Below the pieces are notes generated by a model, which saw only the letters and a list, made by a program, of their open reading frames with translations, was not told the DNA's origin and searched no databases. A stretch of DNA of 42,885 nt from NCBI GenBank assembly GCA_947168905.1, contig CAMVNR010000009.1, positions 1 through 42,885 on the forward strand, in the 5' to 3' direction. Position numbers and translations under genes: made by a program. The stretch comes from an uncultured Lachnospiraceae bacterium. Lineage in GTDB: Bacteria > Bacillota > Clostridia > Lachnospirales > Lachnospiraceae. Shown piece by piece: positions 2,509-9,612 of the stretch; the stretch's first letter is position 1; the number at the start of each line of letters is the position of its first letter.

Positions 2509-3264
2509 TTATTCCTTTGCCCCGATATGATTGATCATGCTCGCGAGATATCCCGCGCCGAAGCCGTTGTCGATGTTCACAACCGAGACCCCCGAGGCGC
2601 AGGAATTCAGCATTGAAAGGAGTGCCGAGAGCCCGTTAAACGAAGCTCCGTAGCCGACGCTTGTCGGGACCGCAATGACCGGGCAGTCCGCCAGTCCGCC
2701 GATGACCGAGGCGAGGGCGCCTTCCATGCCGGCAATCGCGATAATCACGGTTGCGGACATAATTTCGTCCAAATGCGAGAGCGTCCGGTGAAGTCCCGCC
2801 ACCCCGACATCATACAGCCGGATCACCCTGTTTCCGTGTGCCTCGGCGGTCAGCGCCGCTTCTTCCGCTACGGGAATATCCGAGGTGCCGCCGGTCGCTA
2901 CGACAACGGTTCCGATGCCGTCAGGCTCCGGAAGGCTTCCGACAATACCGATCCGGGCATCCGCACGGTAGTCGATTTCGAATTCTTTCTTCAGAATCTC
3001 TGCCGCTTCCTTCGAGAGCCGGGTAATCAGAATCGTCTTCACGCCGTTTTCAAGCATCACTTTCGTGATTCCGATCATCTGCTCCGGGGTCTTCCCCGCA
3101 CCGTAGATCACTTCCGCCGCGCCTTGCCGGACCGCCCGGTGCAGGTCGACCTTCGCGTAGCCAATGTCTTCAAAAGGTTTCTTTTTGATTACAAGAAGCG
3201 CATCGTCAACTGAAATGTTTCCTTTTTCCAGTTCCTCCAGCGTTCTCCTGATATCGTTATTCAC
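2509..3264 (-). CDS. larB: nickel-pincer cofactor biosynthesis protein LarB
   Basis: LarB is the PurE-like carboxylase/hydrolase that converts nicotinic acid adenine dinucleotide to pyridinium-3,5-dicarboxylate mononucleotide, the first step in making the nickel-pincer nucleotide of lactate racemase. The 251-residue protein shows the expected C-terminal AIR-carboxylase-like domain: ATGGTSDIPVAEEA, AGMEGALASVIGG and VPTSVGYGA. It starts with GTG at 3264, overlapping the larE stop by four bases (GTGA), and its own stop touches the next ATG. The coupling to larE supports the assignment. No larA is in the window, so the client enzyme must be encoded elsewhere. Confidence 0.95.
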   Translation of the reverse strand: MNNDIRRTLEELEKGNISVDDALLVIKKKPFEDIGYAKVDLHRAVRQGAAEVIYGAGKTPEQMIGITKVMLENGVKTILITRLSKEAAEILKKEFEIDYRADARIGIVGSLPEPDGIGTVVVATGGTSDIPVAEEAALTAEAHGNRVIRLYDVGVAGLHRTLSHLDEIMSATVIIAIAGMEGALASVIGGLADCPVIAVPTSVGYGASFNGLSALLSMLNSCASGVSVVNIDNGFGAGYLASMINHIGAKE

Positions 3265-4007
3265 GCTCTTACCTCCAGGTCCAGAAGGACCGCATCATAG
3301 TATTTCCGAAGCTCGGCAAGGATTTCCTCTCTCATTAAGAGAAGCTTTTCAAGCTGATCCTCCTTCATCTGGAGCTTCGCAATTCCGTTCATCTGCCGCA
3401 CCCTGAAATCCGTAAAGCCGAGGCTGAAGAGATATCCTTCCGCCTTTTCCGTCGCCGCGAGCTTTTCTGCTGTAATTTCTTCCCCTGCGGGGATTCGGGT
3501 CGCAAGACAGGCATACGCCGGCTTGTCCCAGGTGAAGAGGCCTGCCTCCTTCGACAAACTGCGGATCATGGCCTTCGTCAGACCGCACTCACGAAGCGGG
3601 GAACGAACCCTAAGCTCCTGAAGCGCCTTCATTCCCGGACGGTCGCCTGCGTCGTCACTCGCATTTGTTCCGTCAAGAATCAGTGTATATCCGTCCTTTG
3701 CCGCCGCCTCAAGAATGGTCGAAAAGATCACTTTTTTGCAATAATAGCAGCGGTTTTTCGGGTTGCTTCTGACCGTCTGGTCCGAAAGCACATCGACCTT
3801 AAGGACGGTCATCTCTGCCCCGATCTCTTCTTTCAGCCTCAGCGCGTCATCCATCTCGAACTGAGGCTGGAAAGCGGATTTCACATAATATGCCCGCACA
3901 TCGGCGCCGTATTTTTTCGCAGCATACAACAGATACGTCGAGTCCACGCCGCCGGAAAAGGCAAGCGCGCACTTCGGGTTTTCTCTGAAAAATTCCTTCA
4001 AGTCCAT
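3261..4007 (-). CDS. larE: LarE, ATP-dependent sulfur transferase for the nickel-pincer cofactor
   Basis: LarE adenylates the dicarboxylated pyridinium nucleotide and inserts sulfur into it. The 248-residue protein has the PP-loop ATP motif SGGVDS at residues 18-23 and the second conserved block KPAYACLATR. Three cysteines are notable: C87 and C90 (NRCYYCKK) and C167 (in the ACLATR block). In the Lactobacillus type, a single Cys equivalent to C167 is sacrificed; a three-cysteine arrangement is what is described for [4Fe-4S]-carrying LarE enzymes, so this one is probably cluster-dependent (inference). It lies 6 bp after DUF3842 and overlaps larB by 4 bp. Confidence 0.95.
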   Translation of the reverse strand: MDLKEFFRENPKCALAFSGGVDSTYLLYAAKKYGADVRAYYVKSAFQPQFEMDDALRLKEEIGAEMTVLKVDVLSDQTVRSNPKNRCYYCKKVIFSTILEAAAKDGYTLILDGTNASDDAGDRPGMKALQELRVRSPLRECGLTKAMIRSLSKEAGLFTWDKPAYACLATRIPAGEEITAEKLAATEKAEGYLFSLGFTDFRVRQMNGIAKLQMKEDQLEKLLLMREEILAELRKYYDAVLLDLEVRA

Positions 4008-4013
4008 CCTGTG

Positions 4014-4430
4014 TCAGCCTCCCAATACTTCTTTCAGTTTTTCCATTGCATCGCTCAGATATCCGGTCACGGTTCCGCCGCCCACGCCGGCGACAAGGGT
4101 ATCGCAGCGGTTCATCGGTATCAGAATGCGCACTGCATCAGAAGCCCCGACCGCCGCGGCCATTTTCGCCGTCACTTCGCCCATCAGCGCATCCGCGATC
4201 ACGATTCCGATCGGCCCGATAATAACATCGGCCCTGCGGCTCGAGACGACAGCCGCGTTCTCTCCGGTTGCGGCAGCCCTGGCCCCCGCTTTCAGCATGT
4301 TCTCCGTCGCGATGCTGTTGGTTCCGACCGCGAGAAGCTCCGTATCCGGAAAGCGCTCCGTGATCATTTTCACCAGCTGACGGCCGATATTTCCGCCCTG
4401 TCCGTCAATCACCAGAATCTGTTTCGCCAT
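4014..4430 (-). CDS. DUF3842 family protein, first gene of the lar operon
   Basis: A small 138-residue protein with a Rossmann-like N-terminus (ILVIDGQGGNIGRQL), then VGTNSIATENMLKAGA, ATGEN and IIGPIGIVIADALMGE, the signature of DUF3842, a family without established function in Clostridia. The glycine-rich start suggests nucleotide binding. I place the start at ATG 4430 (MAKQILV) because AAAGGA lies 8 bases upstream of it; an in-frame ATG at 4439 has the SD almost touching. It heads the operon with larE and larB, so a helper role in nickel-pincer cofactor synthesis or use is an attractive guess, not shown by the sequence. Confidence 0.85.
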   Translation of the reverse strand: MAKQILVIDGQGGNIGRQLVKMITERFPDTELLAVGTNSIATENMLKAGARAAATGENAAVVSSRRADVIIGPIGIVIADALMGEVTAKMAAAVGASDAVRILIPMNRCDTLVAGVGGGTVTGYLSDAMEKLKEVLGG

Positions 4431-4537
4431 GCTGTCCATCCTTTCATCAGGCGGTTCCCGGATTCCTCCCCGTTTGATCGTGCCGCAGCGTATTTCTAAG
4501 GAAAGGATTTTTTGAGAACACCTTCAAATTTTCTATA

Positions 4538-4566
4538 AAAATACCACGAGACCCCCTGCCTGTCAA
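4538..4566 (-). promoter_or_regulatory. sigma-A-type promoter of the DUF3842-larE-larB-rluA operon
   Basis: Read on the minus strand, a perfect -35 TTGACA (4566-4561), a 17-base spacer and -10 TATTTT (4543-4538). An imperfect hairpin (CCTGC ... GCAGG, about 4555-4580) overlaps the -35 region. Confidence 0.65.
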
Positions 4567-4602
4567 GAAAACAAGCAGGAAAAATGAGCGTTCCATACTT
4601 TC

Positions 4603-4631
4603 TTTACATTCCGGAAAAGTTATGATAGACT
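4603..4631 (+). promoter_or_regulatory. possible promoter of the GH5-ApbE gene
   Basis: TTTACA (4603-4608), a 17-base spacer and TAGACT (4626-4631) lie about 130 bases before the chosen ATG, back to back with the lar promoter. The rest of the 4431-4759 spacer shows no gene; a small alternative -35/-10 pair near 4700 (TTGGCG ... TAGTTT) is weaker. Confidence 0.4.
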
Positions 4632-4759
4632 GTAACTGTTCAAAATGTCCGGACCGCAAGTGGAGCGCCCCTGTCCCAAGAAGGATGGCTCGTGCGCTCT
4701 GTTTGGCGGATATAAAAATCTGTAATAGTTTACTCAAATTGTTCGAGGAACCTGATCGT

Positions 4760-7027
4760 ATGAAATCCCGAAGAATCCTGCTCATTGTGCTGACTGGCGG
4801 TCTTCTCGCCGCTCTTGCCGTATCCTCTGTCCTGATCCTGAAAGGACAAAAGCCGGCAGCTCTTCCGAAGACGGGTTTCTTAAGCGCAAGCGGAAAAAAC
4901 ATCATTGACCCCGAAGGACAGACCGTGGTCTTAAAGGGCGTCAATATCGGGAACTGGTTTGTCCAGGAATTCTGGATGGGACCGGTGGAGGCATCCTCCG
5001 GGACTGCCTGCCAGAAAGAGCTGGAAGAGACGCTTGAACGGCGTTTCGGAGCGGATCAGGCCGGGAAGCTTCTTGACGCCTACCTCGACCATTATTTTAC
5101 GGAAAAAGATTTCGACTTCCTCCAATCCCTCGGCTTCAACTGCCTCCGGCTGCCTCTCTGGTACGGCGTCTTTACCGATGAAAAAGGCACGTTCAAAGAC
5201 GATGCTTTCAAGCGAGTGGACTGGTTTGTCGAAGAGGCCGGAAAACGCGGCATGACGGTCATCCTCGACATGCACGGCGCCTACGGCTCGCAGAACGGAA
5301 GCGACCACTCCGGAATTGACGGCAGAGACGACAAAATGGCCGCCTCGGAATTCTTCTTCGGCCCTTCGGCCGGGGAAAACCAGGAGCGCTTTCTTGTCCT
5401 GTGGGAGGAGATCGCAAAGCATTACCGGGATCATCCCGCGGTCGCAGGCTACGATCTTCTGAACGAGCCCTTCTGCACCTACCGCTACAATTCAGTCCTT
5501 TCGGACGGCGAGCTTCATGCCCTGCTCTTTCCGGTTTACGACGCCGCTTACCAAAGGATCCGCGCCGTTGACCCAAATCACATGATCTTCATGGAAGCGG
5601 TGTGGGATGCAAAAGACCTGCCGGATCCGGGAAAGTACGGCTGGGAGAATGTCGTCTACGAATATCATAATTACGAATACAGCAATTACCAGAACGAAAA
5701 CAACGCCCAGATTAAGAGCATGAAGAAAAAAATCCGCGGAATCAAGTCCGCGAATTATCAGGTTCCTTCGCTGATGGGCGAATTTAACTATTTCAATAAC
5801 ATGGACGCCTGGAAGGAGGGTCTTAAGCTTCTGAACGAGAATGGGATCAGCTGGTGCATGTGGTCCTATAAGTGCATGACAGAGAACGACAACTGGGGCT
5901 TAATGCGCCTTTCCGTCCCGAAAGTCCATCCCGAGACAGATTCCTACGGGGAAATCCTGGAAAAATGGTCCGGGACCGATAAGGCCTCGGAAAACACTCC
6001 GCTGATCGAAGCTGTGAAAACGGCGCTGTCTGACAACCGGCCCGAAAAAAGCGCCGGCCAGGCCTCGGACACCCGGATCTTTTTCGATACCTCCGTCACA
6101 ATCACCCTCTACGGAGAGGAAGCAGAAGCCGCCCTTTCGGAATGCTTCTCGCTCTGCCGTGACATGGAGCTCGTCTATTCCGCAGAAAACCCGGGAAGCG
6201 AGCTGTACCGTATCAATCACCGCGAGGAAACGGCTTCTCTGGAAGGCAAAGACAGCGCTTCCTGCACGCTCTCCGATGCTCTTTCAGAAGCGGTCCGCCT
6301 CGGTCTTCAGGCCTGTTCGGACACAGGCGGGCTCTTTGATATTACCATGTATCCCGTCACCTCTCTCTGGGACTTTCGAAGCGGAAAGGGCTCTGTTCCG
6401 GACGAAGAGCGCCTAAAAGACGCGCTCCTTCTCGTAGATTCCGGACAGCTTGAGCTGTCGGGAAACGTCCTGACGCTTTCCGGGAGCGGGACGAAAATAG
6501 ATCTTGGCGCAGTCGCCAAGGGCTGCATTTCCAAAGCGCTGAAGGCCGCCATGAAAGACCGTCCAGGCGTGGACGGCGGCGTCATCAATCTCGGGGGCAA
6601 TATCAGCGTCTTCGGCAGCAAGCCGGACAGCAGCGACTGGCTTGTCGGCATCCAGAAGCCCTTCTCCGGACGCGGAGAACTGATCGCCGCAGTCTCCTTA
6701 AAAGACGGCTGTGTCATCAGCTCCGGCGTTTACGAGCGGAATTTCACCGAGGACGGCACGCTCTATCACCACATCCTCTCCGCAGAGACTGGAATGCCCG
6801 TATACAGCGGGCTTTCCCAGGCCACCGTGATCGGAACAGATGATGCGCTCGCGGACACGCTTTCCACCGTCTGCATGCTTCTCGGGAAAGACGCCTCCGA
6901 AAAGCTGATTTTGGAAAAAGGCTTCGCTGTCCGGGTGCTTTATACCTCGGACGACGGCACGCTGACACTCTTTGATCCCTCAGAAGGCGAAACCTCCGTA
7001 AAGGAAGGCGCCCGTCTGGATTTTTAA
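4760..7027 (+). CDS. membrane-anchored fusion: GH5 glycoside hydrolase + ApbE FAD:protein FMN transferase
   Basis: A 755-residue two-module protein. Residues 5-27 are a hydrophobic signal anchor without a lipobox Cys. Residues about 40-405 are a GH5 (clan A) domain: GVNIGNW start, acid/base E236 in LLNEPF, H303 in EYHNYEY and nucleophile E341 in LMGEFNYF, resembling exo-beta-1,3-glucanase-like GH5 members. Residues about 437-755 are a complete ApbE flavin transferase: GLFDITMYPV, IDLGAVAKG, INLGGN, ISSGVYER and the Mg-binding ADTLST (699-703). ApbE attaches FMN to Thr/Ser of target proteins outside the membrane. Both active sites look intact and the frame is continuous. The ATG at 4760 follows GAGGAA; the frame opens earlier (4622) but that segment lacks an SD. 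The next two genes are NusG-II and Gx-type membrane proteins, as in flavin electron-transfer loci. No FMN-accepting [ST]GA[ST] substrate was noticed here. Confidence 0.9.
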   Translation: MKSRRILLIVLTGGLLAALAVSSVLILKGQKPAALPKTGFLSASGKNIIDPEGQTVVLKGVNIGNWFVQEFWMGPVEASSGTACQKELEETLERRFGADQAGKLLDAYLDHYFTEKDFDFLQSLGFNCLRLPLWYGVFTDEKGTFKDDAFKRVDWFVEEAGKRGMTVILDMHGAYGSQNGSDHSGIDGRDDKMAASEFFFGPSAGENQERFLVLWEEIAKHYRDHPAVAGYDLLNEPFCTYRYNSVLSDGELHALLFPVYDAAYQRIRAVDPNHMIFMEAVWDAKDLPDPGKYGWENVVYEYHNYEYSNYQNENNAQIKSMKKKIRGIKSANYQVPSLMGEFNYFNNMDAWKEGLKLLNENGISWCMWSYKCMTENDNWGLMRLSVPKVHPETDSYGEILEKWSGTDKASENTPLIEAVKTALSDNRPEKSAGQASDTRIFFDTSVTITLYGEEAEAALSECFSLCRDMELVYSAENPGSELYRINHREETASLEGKDSASCTLSDALSEAVRLGLQACSDTGGLFDITMYPVTSLWDFRSGKGSVPDEERLKDALLLVDSGQLELSGNVLTLSGSGTKIDLGAVAKGCISKALKAAMKDRPGVDGGVINLGGNISVFGSKPDSSDWLVGIQKPFSGRGELIAAVSLKDGCVISSGVYERNFTEDGTLYHHILSAETGMPVYSGLSQATVIGTDDALADTLSTVCMLLGKDASEKLILEKGFAVRVLYTSDDGTLTLFDPSEGETSVKEGARLDF

Positions 7028-7040
7028 GCAGGAACTACGG

Positions 7041-7469
7041 ATGAAACCAGAAAACGCAGCAAAAAAAAATTCCCTGAATGAAGAGAAAAAGCCCCGCAGA
7101 ATCCGCAGGGCGGATCTTGTGCTGCTCGCAGGTATCGCCTTCTTCGCGGTCCTGCTCTTTTTCTTCTTCCTCTGGAAGGACCATTCCATCACCTCCCCCG
7201 TCCTGGAGATTTCCTCCGGCGGAAAAATCCTCGGACAGTACCCTCTGTCAGAAAACCGGGAGATCCGGATCGGAGAGGACAAGAACTATAATGTCTGCCG
7301 GATTGAAGACGGAAAGGTGCGGATTACGGAAGCCGACTGTCCGGATCATTCCTGCATCAGGAGCCTCCCGATCGACGGACGCGGCGGAACCATTATCTGT
7401 CTGCCGCACAGGCTCGTTATCAGAATTACCGGCGGGACGGGAAATATCCCGGACGCCGTGGCGGAGTAA
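7041..7469 (+). CDS. NusG domain II-containing membrane protein (EetA-like)
   Basis: A 142-residue protein with a charged cytoplasmic N-terminus, one transmembrane helix (about 28-46) and an extracytoplasmic NusG-II-like beta domain carrying the family pattern EADCPDHSC...IICLPHRLVI with three cysteines. Such proteins occur beside ApbE and Gx-type proteins in Clostridia; from memory, EetA of the Listeria extracellular electron transfer locus belongs to this family, though its biochemical role is not settled. It starts 13 bp after the GH5-ApbE stop and ends 3 bp before the next gene, so the three are co-transcribed and probably act together on an extracytoplasmic flavin or quinone pathway. Confidence 0.85.
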   Translation: MKPENAAKKNSLNEEKKPRRIRRADLVLLAGIAFFAVLLFFFFLWKDHSITSPVLEISSGGKILGQYPLSENREIRIGEDKNYNVCRIEDGKVRITEADCPDHSCIRSLPIDGRGGTIICLPHRLVIRITGGTGNIPDAVAE

Positions 7470-7472
7470 GCG

Positions 7473-8042
7473 ATGAATAAGAATCGACGCATTTCCGAGA
7501 ATCCTCCCGAAAAAACAGGACTGTTCCGCACAGATTCCCCGGCGGCCAAAATCGCTCTTCTCGGGCTTCTCACGGCGCTCGCCGTCATCATGGGCTATAT
7601 CGAGCACCGGATCCCGCTGCCGCTGCCGGTCCCGGGCATTAAGCTCGGCCTCTGTAATATCGTCATTGTCTTTGTCCTGTACCGCTTCGGATTCCTACGC
7701 GCGCTTACCGTATCCATCATCCGTATCCTCGTGATCGGATTTCTCTTCGGAAGCCCCGTCAGTATGTTTTACGGCTTCTTCGGCGCGCTTCTAAGCCTTT
7801 CCGGAATGGCGCTTCTCATGCGCTCCGGCAGATTTTCCGTCATCGGCGTAAGCGCAGGCGGCGGAGCGCTGCACAGCATCGGCCAGATCGGGGCGGCGGC
7901 CATACTGACCGCAGGAACCGGCATCTTCCGTTACCTTCCTGTCCTGCTTCTTGCAGGCGAATTCTGCGGTGCGCTGATCGGGCTGATCGACCGGACGGTC
8001 TTAAAGCGTCTCGGGAAGCAGCGAAACGAAGGAATCATTTAA
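7473..8042 (+). CDS. Gx transporter family / heptaprenyl diphosphate synthase component I-like membrane protein (EetB-like)
   Basis: A 189-residue integral membrane protein with about five to six hydrophobic helices. Family landmarks are GYIEHRIPLPLPVPGIKLGLCNI near residue 40 (a re-entrant-like proline-rich segment), FLFGSPVSMFYGFFGALLS and GGGALHSIGQIGAA. Databases call this family heptaprenyl diphosphate synthase component I, but the topology resembles small substrate-specific (S) components of ECF-type transporters, and related proteins sit in flavin-based electron transfer loci. It has a GGCGGAG ribosome site overlapping the previous gene. The substrate is unknown; flavin, its precursor or a prenyl/quinone intermediate are possibilities suggested only by context. 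Confidence 0.85.
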   Translation: MNKNRRISENPPEKTGLFRTDSPAAKIALLGLLTALAVIMGYIEHRIPLPLPVPGIKLGLCNIVIVFVLYRFGFLRALTVSIIRILVIGFLFGSPVSMFYGFFGALLSLSGMALLMRSGRFSVIGVSAGGGALHSIGQIGAAAILTAGTGIFRYLPVLLLAGEFCGALIGLIDRTVLKRLGKQRNEGII

Positions 8043-8089: not shown

Positions 8090-8169
8090 CTCATAAATAC
8101 ACGGCAGAACACACGAAAACTTCCGGCTGCCGCTTGAAGACATCTACAGAACAGGAGGACTTAAATCAC

Positions 8170-9612
8170 TTGAAAACCTTGTACATCGAATGCAATATGG
8201 GCGCTGCGGGCGACATGCTGACCGCCGCCCTCACCGAACTCATGCCCGATCCGGACGGATTTATCAAAGAGCTGAACGCCCTCGGGATTCCCGGCGTAGT
8301 CTATGAAAAAAGCCCTTCCGTCAAATGCGGAATTACCGGCACGCATATCAGCGTAAAGATAAACGGCGAGGAAGAAGAGGCCGGGGATGCCGTTGGGCAC
8401 CACCATGACCATGAACACGAGCATGAACATACCCACGAGCATGAACATACCCACGAGCATGAACACGACCATGAGCATGACCATGAGCATGACCATGAGC
8501 ATGACCATGACCACGAGCACAGTGACGGGCATCCGCACGAAGCCAAAGCTCATATTCATCAGGACGAAATCCATGAGCATGTGCACCATCATGACCATGA
8601 TAACGACCACGATCATGACCATGACAACGACCACGATCACGACCATACCCACGATCACAGCCATCATCACCATCATCACAGCAGTATGGCGGACATTTCT
8701 GCCATTATCGGCGCACTGAATGTCTCTGACAAGGTGAAAGCCGACGCTATGGCTGTATATGCCCTGATTGCGGAAGCCGAAAGTCATGCGCACAACACTC
8801 CGGTCTCCGAGATTCATTTCCACGAAGTCGGAACGATGGATGCAATCGCCGATGTGACGGCTGTCTGCCTTGCCATGGAGAAGCTTTCCCCGGATAAAAT
8901 CGTCGTATCTCCGATTCATGTCGGCTCGGGGCAGGTTCGCTGCGCCCATGGAATCCTGCCGGTTCCGGCGCCTGCGACAGCCTATATCCTGCAGGGCATC
9001 CCGTTCTACGGCGGCCGGATCCGCGGCGAGCTCTGCACTCCGACAGGCGCCGCGCTTCTGAAGCACTTCGGCACACAGTTCGGCGAAATGCCGGTGATGC
9101 GCGTGGAGAAAACCGGCTACGGCATGGGGAAGAAGGATTTCGAGGCAGCCAACTGCGTGCGCGTCATGCTTGGCGAGACTTCGGATCTCGGCGACAAGGT
9201 CGTCGAGCTGAACTGCAATGTCGACGATATGACGGCTGAGGAGATCGCCTTCGCGATGGAGCGCCTCTTTGATGCCGGCGCTTTCGAGGTCTTCACCATT
9301 CCGGTCAACATGAAAAAGTCCCGGCCCGGCACCCTGCTTCGCGTGCTCGCGAATCCAGCCAAAAAGGAAGAAATGGCTGCCGTTATCTTCCGATACACCA
9401 CTACGATCGGCATCCGCGAGGTTCCCTGCAGCCGCTATGTTCTGAGGCGCAGCATGCAGACCCTGGAAACACCGTACGGACCGGTCCGCGTCAAACGCTC
9501 TGAGGGTTACGGCGTTGTCCGCGAGAAGCTGGAATTTGAAGACATCGCCAGGATCGCGCGGGAGAAGGAGCTCAGCATCCGTGACGTTCGCGAAATGCTG
9601 AAAAACGACTGA
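8170..9612 (+). CDS. larC: LarC, nickel insertion enzyme with very His-rich insert
   Basis: LarC uses CTP to insert nickel into the dithio-pyridinium nucleotide, the last step of nickel-pincer cofactor synthesis. The product is a single continuous 480-residue chain, not the split larC1/larC2 form of Lactobacillus plantarum. The N-terminal block YIECNMGAAGDML, the EIHFHEVGTMDAI motif, the VNCNVDDMTAEE-like block (LNCNVDDMTAEE) and the C-terminal ferredoxin-fold region are all present. Residues 77-170 are an insert with 46 His by my count, the rest mostly Asp/Glu, a likely nickel store. I chose TTG at 8170 (LKTLYIEC, GGAGG 11 bases upstream); an in-frame TTG at 8134 has no good SD. It follows the NusG-II/Gx genes by a hairpin-containing spacer and ends in a terminator, 4-6 kb from larE/larB on the other strand. 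Confidence 0.95.
   Translation: MKTLYIECNMGAAGDMLTAALTELMPDPDGFIKELNALGIPGVVYEKSPSVKCGITGTHISVKINGEEEEAGDAVGHHHDHEHEHEHTHEHEHTHEHEHDHEHDHEHDHEHDHDHEHSDGHPHEAKAHIHQDEIHEHVHHHDHDNDHDHDHDNDHDHDHTHDHSHHHHHHSSMADISAIIGALNVSDKVKADAMAVYALIAEAESHAHNTPVSEIHFHEVGTMDAIADVTAVCLAMEKLSPDKIVVSPIHVGSGQVRCAHGILPVPAPATAYILQGIPFYGGRIRGELCTPTGAALLKHFGTQFGEMPVMRVEKTGYGMGKKDFEAANCVRVMLGETSDLGDKVVELNCNVDDMTAEEIAFAMERLFDAGAFEVFTIPVNMKKSRPGTLLRVLANPAKKEEMAAVIFRYTTTIGIREVPCSRYVLRRSMQTLETPYGPVRVKRSEGYGVVREKLEFEDIARIAREKELSIRDVREMLKND
8398..8679 (+). repeat. His/Asp/Glu codon repeat tract inside larC
   Basis: Short in-frame units such as GAGCATGACCAT and CATACCCACGAGCATGAA recur, encoding HEHD, HTHE and finally HHHHHH. 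The tract lies between the N-terminal substrate domain and the MADISAI segment. Repetition at DNA level makes it prone to length change by slippage in six-base steps, which would keep the frame. Confidence 0.9.

Follow-up and report, generated by a model that had tools for sequence, protein, structure and literature searches.

Does a glycoside hydrolase fused to a flavin transferase mean that surface glycan handling and flavinylated electron transfer work together, or have two genes simply been joined? The question is raised by one frame in the window, a stretch of 42,885 nucleotides from the draft genome of a rumen-type Lachnospiraceae bacterium (2.63 Mb, 154 contigs, 95% complete). A preliminary description of this DNA had proposed that the two processes are joined. 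The physical joining of glycoside hydrolase family 5 (GH5) to ApbE is supported as real by the sequence, but the functional coupling is not supported, the domains being separate in every close relative examined.

Structure of the fused protein

Positions 4760-7027 (plus strand) translate without a stop into 755 amino acids, and translation, Pfam and AlphaFold2 divided this protein into a signal anchor, a GH5 domain, a short linker and an ApbE domain. The signal anchor (residues 1-39; 4760-4876, plus strand) has a single hydrophobic segment at about residues 6-28 and stands in for the lipoprotein signal of ApbE. No lipobox cysteine, and no cysteine at all, was found in this N-terminus. The motif LPKTG at residues 35-39 (4862-4876) was rejected as a sortase signal, being N-terminal and without a sorting tail, and was taken as chance.

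The GH5 catalytic domain, a (beta/alpha)8 fold, covers residues 40-424 (4877-6031, plus strand), with a Pfam Cellulase/GH5 match at residues 113-370 (E = 3.5e-33; 115.7 bits against a gathering cut-off of 23.5 bits). Its active-site set was complete (R130, H172, N235-E236, H303, Y305, E341, and W368). From general knowledge of GH5 enzymes, we take E236 (5465-5467) to be the acid/base and E341 (5780-5782) to be the nucleophile. The linker DNRPEKSAGQ (residues 425-434; 6032-6061, plus strand), delimited by sequence comparison and AlphaFold2, resembles SPREKGAASDT, the stretch found after the lipobox of unfused ApbE. It is followed by the ApbE FAD:protein FMN transferase domain (6062-7024, plus strand), whose mature N-terminus, ASDTRIFFDTS, aligns with the ApbE of two congeners, G013 and G004. 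The Pfam ApbE match (PF02424) spanned residues 442-719 and profile positions 1-257 of 266 (E = 1.3e-65; 222 bits against a gathering cut-off of 25.6 bits).

We mapped the ApbE residues by alignment to Listeria FmnB, with the key residues of that enzyme taken from PMC8906456. The catalytic Ser, His and Asp were all kept (S655, H671, and D699), as was the remaining FAD/Mg set (D581, K587, N614, R660, S702, and T703), and the position of FmnB Met49 corresponded to F442 of the fusion. The continuous frame with both domains, the two catalytic glutamates of GH5 and the ApbE FAD/Mg motifs given in the preliminary description were all borne out, with both Pfam matches far above cut-off and every FmnB-equivalent residue tested present.

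The AlphaFold2 model of the fusion had a mean pLDDT of 90.8 and both domains were confident. Low confidence was limited to residues 1-33 and to the linker around residues 428-430, the lowest in the interior, and the mutual orientation of the two domains was undefined (pTM 0.59). Foldseek matched the ApbE half to FmnB (7f2u) and TP0796, and the GH5 half to structures of a GH5_22 exo-beta-xylosidase (9ku5), endoglycoceramidase, and exo-beta-1,3-glucanase (6zb8). Both domains appear intact and are probably active.

Genomic context

The ApbE domain still heads a flavin-trafficking operon. A NusG_II (PF07009) membrane protein (7041-7469, plus strand), which we take to be EetA-like by its position, starts 14 bp past the fusion and belongs to the same operon by spacing, and is followed by a PF07456 gene of the EetB (FAD-export) family (7473-8042, plus strand). 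The block is flanked on the left by a divergent DUF3842 gene (4014-4439, minus strand) and on the right by LarC (8134-9612, plus strand), both outside the function discussed here.

G013 and G004 have the same block, with LarB-LarE-DUF3842 on the minus strand and ApbE-NusG_II-PF07456-LarC on the plus strand. At this locus both carry a free ApbE lipoprotein, of 354 and 357 amino acids, with the lipoboxes LLPCC and LSGC and the N-terminal sequences LLPCCSPREKGAASDTKVFFDTS and LSGCTSPKKKTASDTGIFFDTS, respectively. The lipobox signal that is usual, although not obligatory, for ApbE is present in both and absent from the fusion, and no GH5 was found at the apbE locus of either.

As a separate observation, the conserved flanks of the apbE operon place nickel-pincer cofactor genes beside flavin trafficking: larB, larE and DUF3842 (2509-4439) are divergent to the operon and larC follows it, an arrangement kept in the two congeners. 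LarC has a long His/Asp/Glu-rich insertion (HEHDHEHDH...), also seen in the G013 and G004 orthologues and possibly involved in nickel binding.

The GH5 domain and its relatives

We scanned the GH5 loci of the best 80 of 551 relatives. The nearest in that set (L055-L058, 57-58% identity) were stand-alone frames of 435-458 residues from rumen Eubacterium/Lachnospiraceae MAGs, with a signal anchor of the fusion's type. Their C-terminal end (LVEAIKKSQE) aligns with LIEAVKTALS, directly before the fusion linker. Relatives L022, L042 and L044 were modular; L044 carries GH16, and modules of repeat or binding type were seen elsewhere in the group. Members of the group also occurred in Treponema, Bacteroidales and Bacillus-like genomes among these 80. 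Within the family the group was patchy (9 of 299 genomes at E 1e-45, the source genome counted). The modular GH16 relative and the resemblance to exo-beta-1,3-glucanases suggest that the GH5 half is a beta-glucan enzyme. Judged by eye, the neighbours of GH5 in L055 resemble carB, an ATPase and a phosphatase of the HAD type, with no redox gene among them.

At columns otherwise invariant in 14 relatives, the GH5 half deviated at 6 of 106, compared with 0-5 for other members; in a second set of 16 it deviated at 1 of 64, where T166 replaces Tyr at a non-catalytic position. Tajima relative-rate counts for fused versus unfused orthologous ApbE, with G001 as outgroup, were 16 versus 15 and 15 versus 18 changes, and there is no increase in amino-acid rate in the fused ApbE. 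Judged from these comparisons, GH5 appears to have diverged only a little further than its relatives, and decay is apparent in neither half.

The likely role of the ApbE domain

The source genome, at its 95% completeness, gave one ApbE match and one FMN_bind match. The latter made up the C-terminal half of an RnfD-RnfG fusion of 528 aa (L143:5823-7409; G000 contig C84), within a complete rnfC-DG-E-A-B operon on a contig other than that of the fusion. RnfD and RnfG domains also occupied single frames in G013 and G004 (547 and 573 aa). The RnfG half carries DGVSGCT, which fits the flavinylation motif D-x-x-[ST]-G-A-[ST] (PMC12052999) except for Cys in place of Ala. No PplA-like FMN_bind lipoprotein of Listeria-type extracellular electron transfer was found in the genome, RnfDG being the sole FMN_bind match.

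Because this is the only ApbE found, the only FMN_bind domain lies in RnfDG and the operon is one of flavin trafficking, Rnf flavinylation is the best-supported and most likely role of the fused ApbE. Operon and genome context point to Rnf, a membrane ion pump, and not to a glycan-associated redox protein. The remaining ~5% of the genome could hold another ApbE or FMN_bind gene. We propose that EetB-type ECF transport would deliver FAD outside the membrane, where the ApbE domain, held by the GH5 signal anchor rather than by lipid, would split it and transfer FMN onto RnfG (at DGVSGCT), and probably also RnfD, of the Rnf complex. GH5, for its part, would be an ordinary surface enzyme of beta-glucanase type, most likely without a mechanistic tie to flavinylation.

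Origin of the fusion

The apbE genes of G013 and G004 share a promoter-like upstream block (28 of 36 positions identical). This block was absent from window positions 4401-7100, where the best matches were no better than shuffles. Given the free ApbE in the congeners, the free GH5 that ends at the linker and the loss of the upstream block, a whole GH5 gene seems to have taken the place of the native front part of apbE, namely its promoter, its start and its signal peptide with the lipobox. A signal-anchored free GH5 gene would have come to lie directly before apbE in an operon of the apbE-eetA-eetB type, and loss of these apbE elements along with the stop codon of GH5 would then have brought the GH5 C-terminus in frame with the mature ApbE N-terminus. 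We infer this order of events, as we do the membrane topology, the independence of the two activities and the activity of both domains.

Overall, a lineage-specific end-to-end fusion, with ApbE serving Rnf and GH5 without a link to flavinylation, is in our judgement probably the right explanation. The simplest account of why such a fusion is tolerated is that a signal anchor can do the work of a lipid anchor. Since none of the relatives examined has the fusion, an accident of rearrangement is more likely than a functional linkage of the two jobs.

Alternative explanations

The loss of the lipobox, which leaves the GH5 signal anchor as the only one, would also fit a GH5 that serves ApbE as a spacer across the wall or as an anchor that binds carbohydrate, with hydrolysis secondary, and the GH5 relatives are signal-bearing and often have extra modules. 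However, the likely substrate, Rnf, is in the membrane, a lipid anchor suffices in the congeners, and the catalytic residues of GH5 are kept, and we regard this explanation as unlikely.

Functional coupling would mean that GH5 binds or trims surface glycan and so places ApbE near a glycan-associated flavoprotein or regulates electron transfer. It agrees with one continuous protein in which both active sites are intact, with a GH5 half that is just mildly more divergent than its relatives, and with the continued integrity of GH5, which is compatible with a selected, coupled role. Against this, no second GH5-ApbE fusion was found in 61 relatives, 15 genus genomes and 299 family genomes; G001 was left out of this verdict because its ApbE sits at a contig edge and cannot be judged. 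The separate genes in close relatives that were named beforehand as telling against the proposal were found, as far as conservation is concerned, with ApbE free in G013 and G004 and GH5 free in L055-L058. An ApbE gene adjoined GH5 in only 1 of the best 80 of 551 relatives, and the only FMN_bind protein found is that of Rnf. Coupling is on this evidence quite improbable.

The single adjoining locus (L085:2424-5167, from a Bacteroidales MAG) has nqr-like genes followed by ApbE and next by a GH5 from this group, codirectional and about 100 bases apart; we judged it a coincidence and rejected it as evidence of coupling. No plasmid record had a match covering 80% of the fusion protein, and the exact junction DNA was not found in viral contigs. 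A stronger form of the proposal is slightly less probable still: a bifunctional protein of the envelope whose GH5 half, by binding or hydrolysing glycan, positions or controls the only flavin transferase found in the cell. If true, Rnf or another flavoprotein would undergo maturation at a surface glucan or as a response to one.

An assembly artefact, in which a GH5 contig was joined onto the apbE locus, is improbable to a similar degree. The fusion comes from a sole assembly, one draft of 154 contigs, and the artefact keeps a small residual probability because just a single genome showed the fusion. However, a chimera would need two joints since synteny with G013 and G004 extends to either side of the fusion, and the joint is in frame and lies between the natural ends of both proteins. 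The GC3 of GH5 (0.675) and ApbE (0.676) is similar to that of neighbouring genes, whereas the nearest GH5 relatives come from low-GC genomes (about 39-40% GC at the sampled loci of the nearest stand-alone genes), and no N letters were found in the fusion region. The open frame, the synteny, the uniform GC3 and the normal ApbE rate largely answer the earlier concern about a sequencing frameshift or deletion or an assembly joint. Cleavage of the secreted protein between its GH5 and ApbE parts, which would make the fusion merely genetic, agrees with the short and probably flexible linker, its low model confidence and the undefined domain orientation, and is the least likely of these explanations.

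Scope and comparison with known systems

The fusion is known from one genome of one species, and no fusion of a glycoside hydrolase to ApbE was found in the literature searched. Few ApbE frames were long in the genomes covered: among the matches listed across the order, frame lengths were 306-411 aa except for one of 1073 aa. That frame (L146:3385-6606; G628 C31) has ApbE near its N-terminus and about 700 further residues, with a LysM-like stretch seen by eye and ApbE as the sole Pfam domain recognised.

The sole flavin transferase found apparently tolerates having a 430-residue enzyme with a signal anchor where its lipid anchor would be. This offers a natural test of ApbE anchoring and makes the lipidation requirement directly testable. 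The case is also a caution that a single domain fusion does not equal functional coupling. Both partners belong to known families, and their joining gives no evidence for a new glycan-redox system.

With Listeria FmnB and other ApbE proteins (PF02424; PDB 7esa and 7f2u), the fusion has in common the whole catalytic domain, the D-S-H triad, the Mg and FAD residues and an EetB-family operon neighbour. Known ApbE/FmnB proteins are mostly free lipoproteins, whereas here a GH5 domain and a signal anchor stand in front and the lipobox is absent. In Clostridia, Rnf-associated EetB/ApbE flavin trafficking has been described (PMC9973259), with apbE, eetB and the Rnf complex in one genome as here; in the present genome, in contrast, ApbE is fused to GH5 and rnf is on another contig.

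The GH5 group of L055-L058 and L022, L042 and L044 shares the signal anchor type and the C-terminal end of the fusion's GH5, but its members are stand-alone or joined to GH16 or other modules, and an ApbE partner was seen in none. The nearest solved structures are the GH5_22 exo-beta-xylosidase (9ku5) and exo-beta-1,3-glucanases (6zb8/6zb9 and 1cz1), but at only about 20-24% in structural alignments. In Trypanosoma and Leptomonas, an ApbE domain is fused to fumarate reductase (PMC12052999) and lies inside a larger polypeptide, as here; there, however, the partner of ApbE is the flavinylated enzyme itself, while the glycoside hydrolase that accompanies ApbE here has no FMN-acceptor domain.
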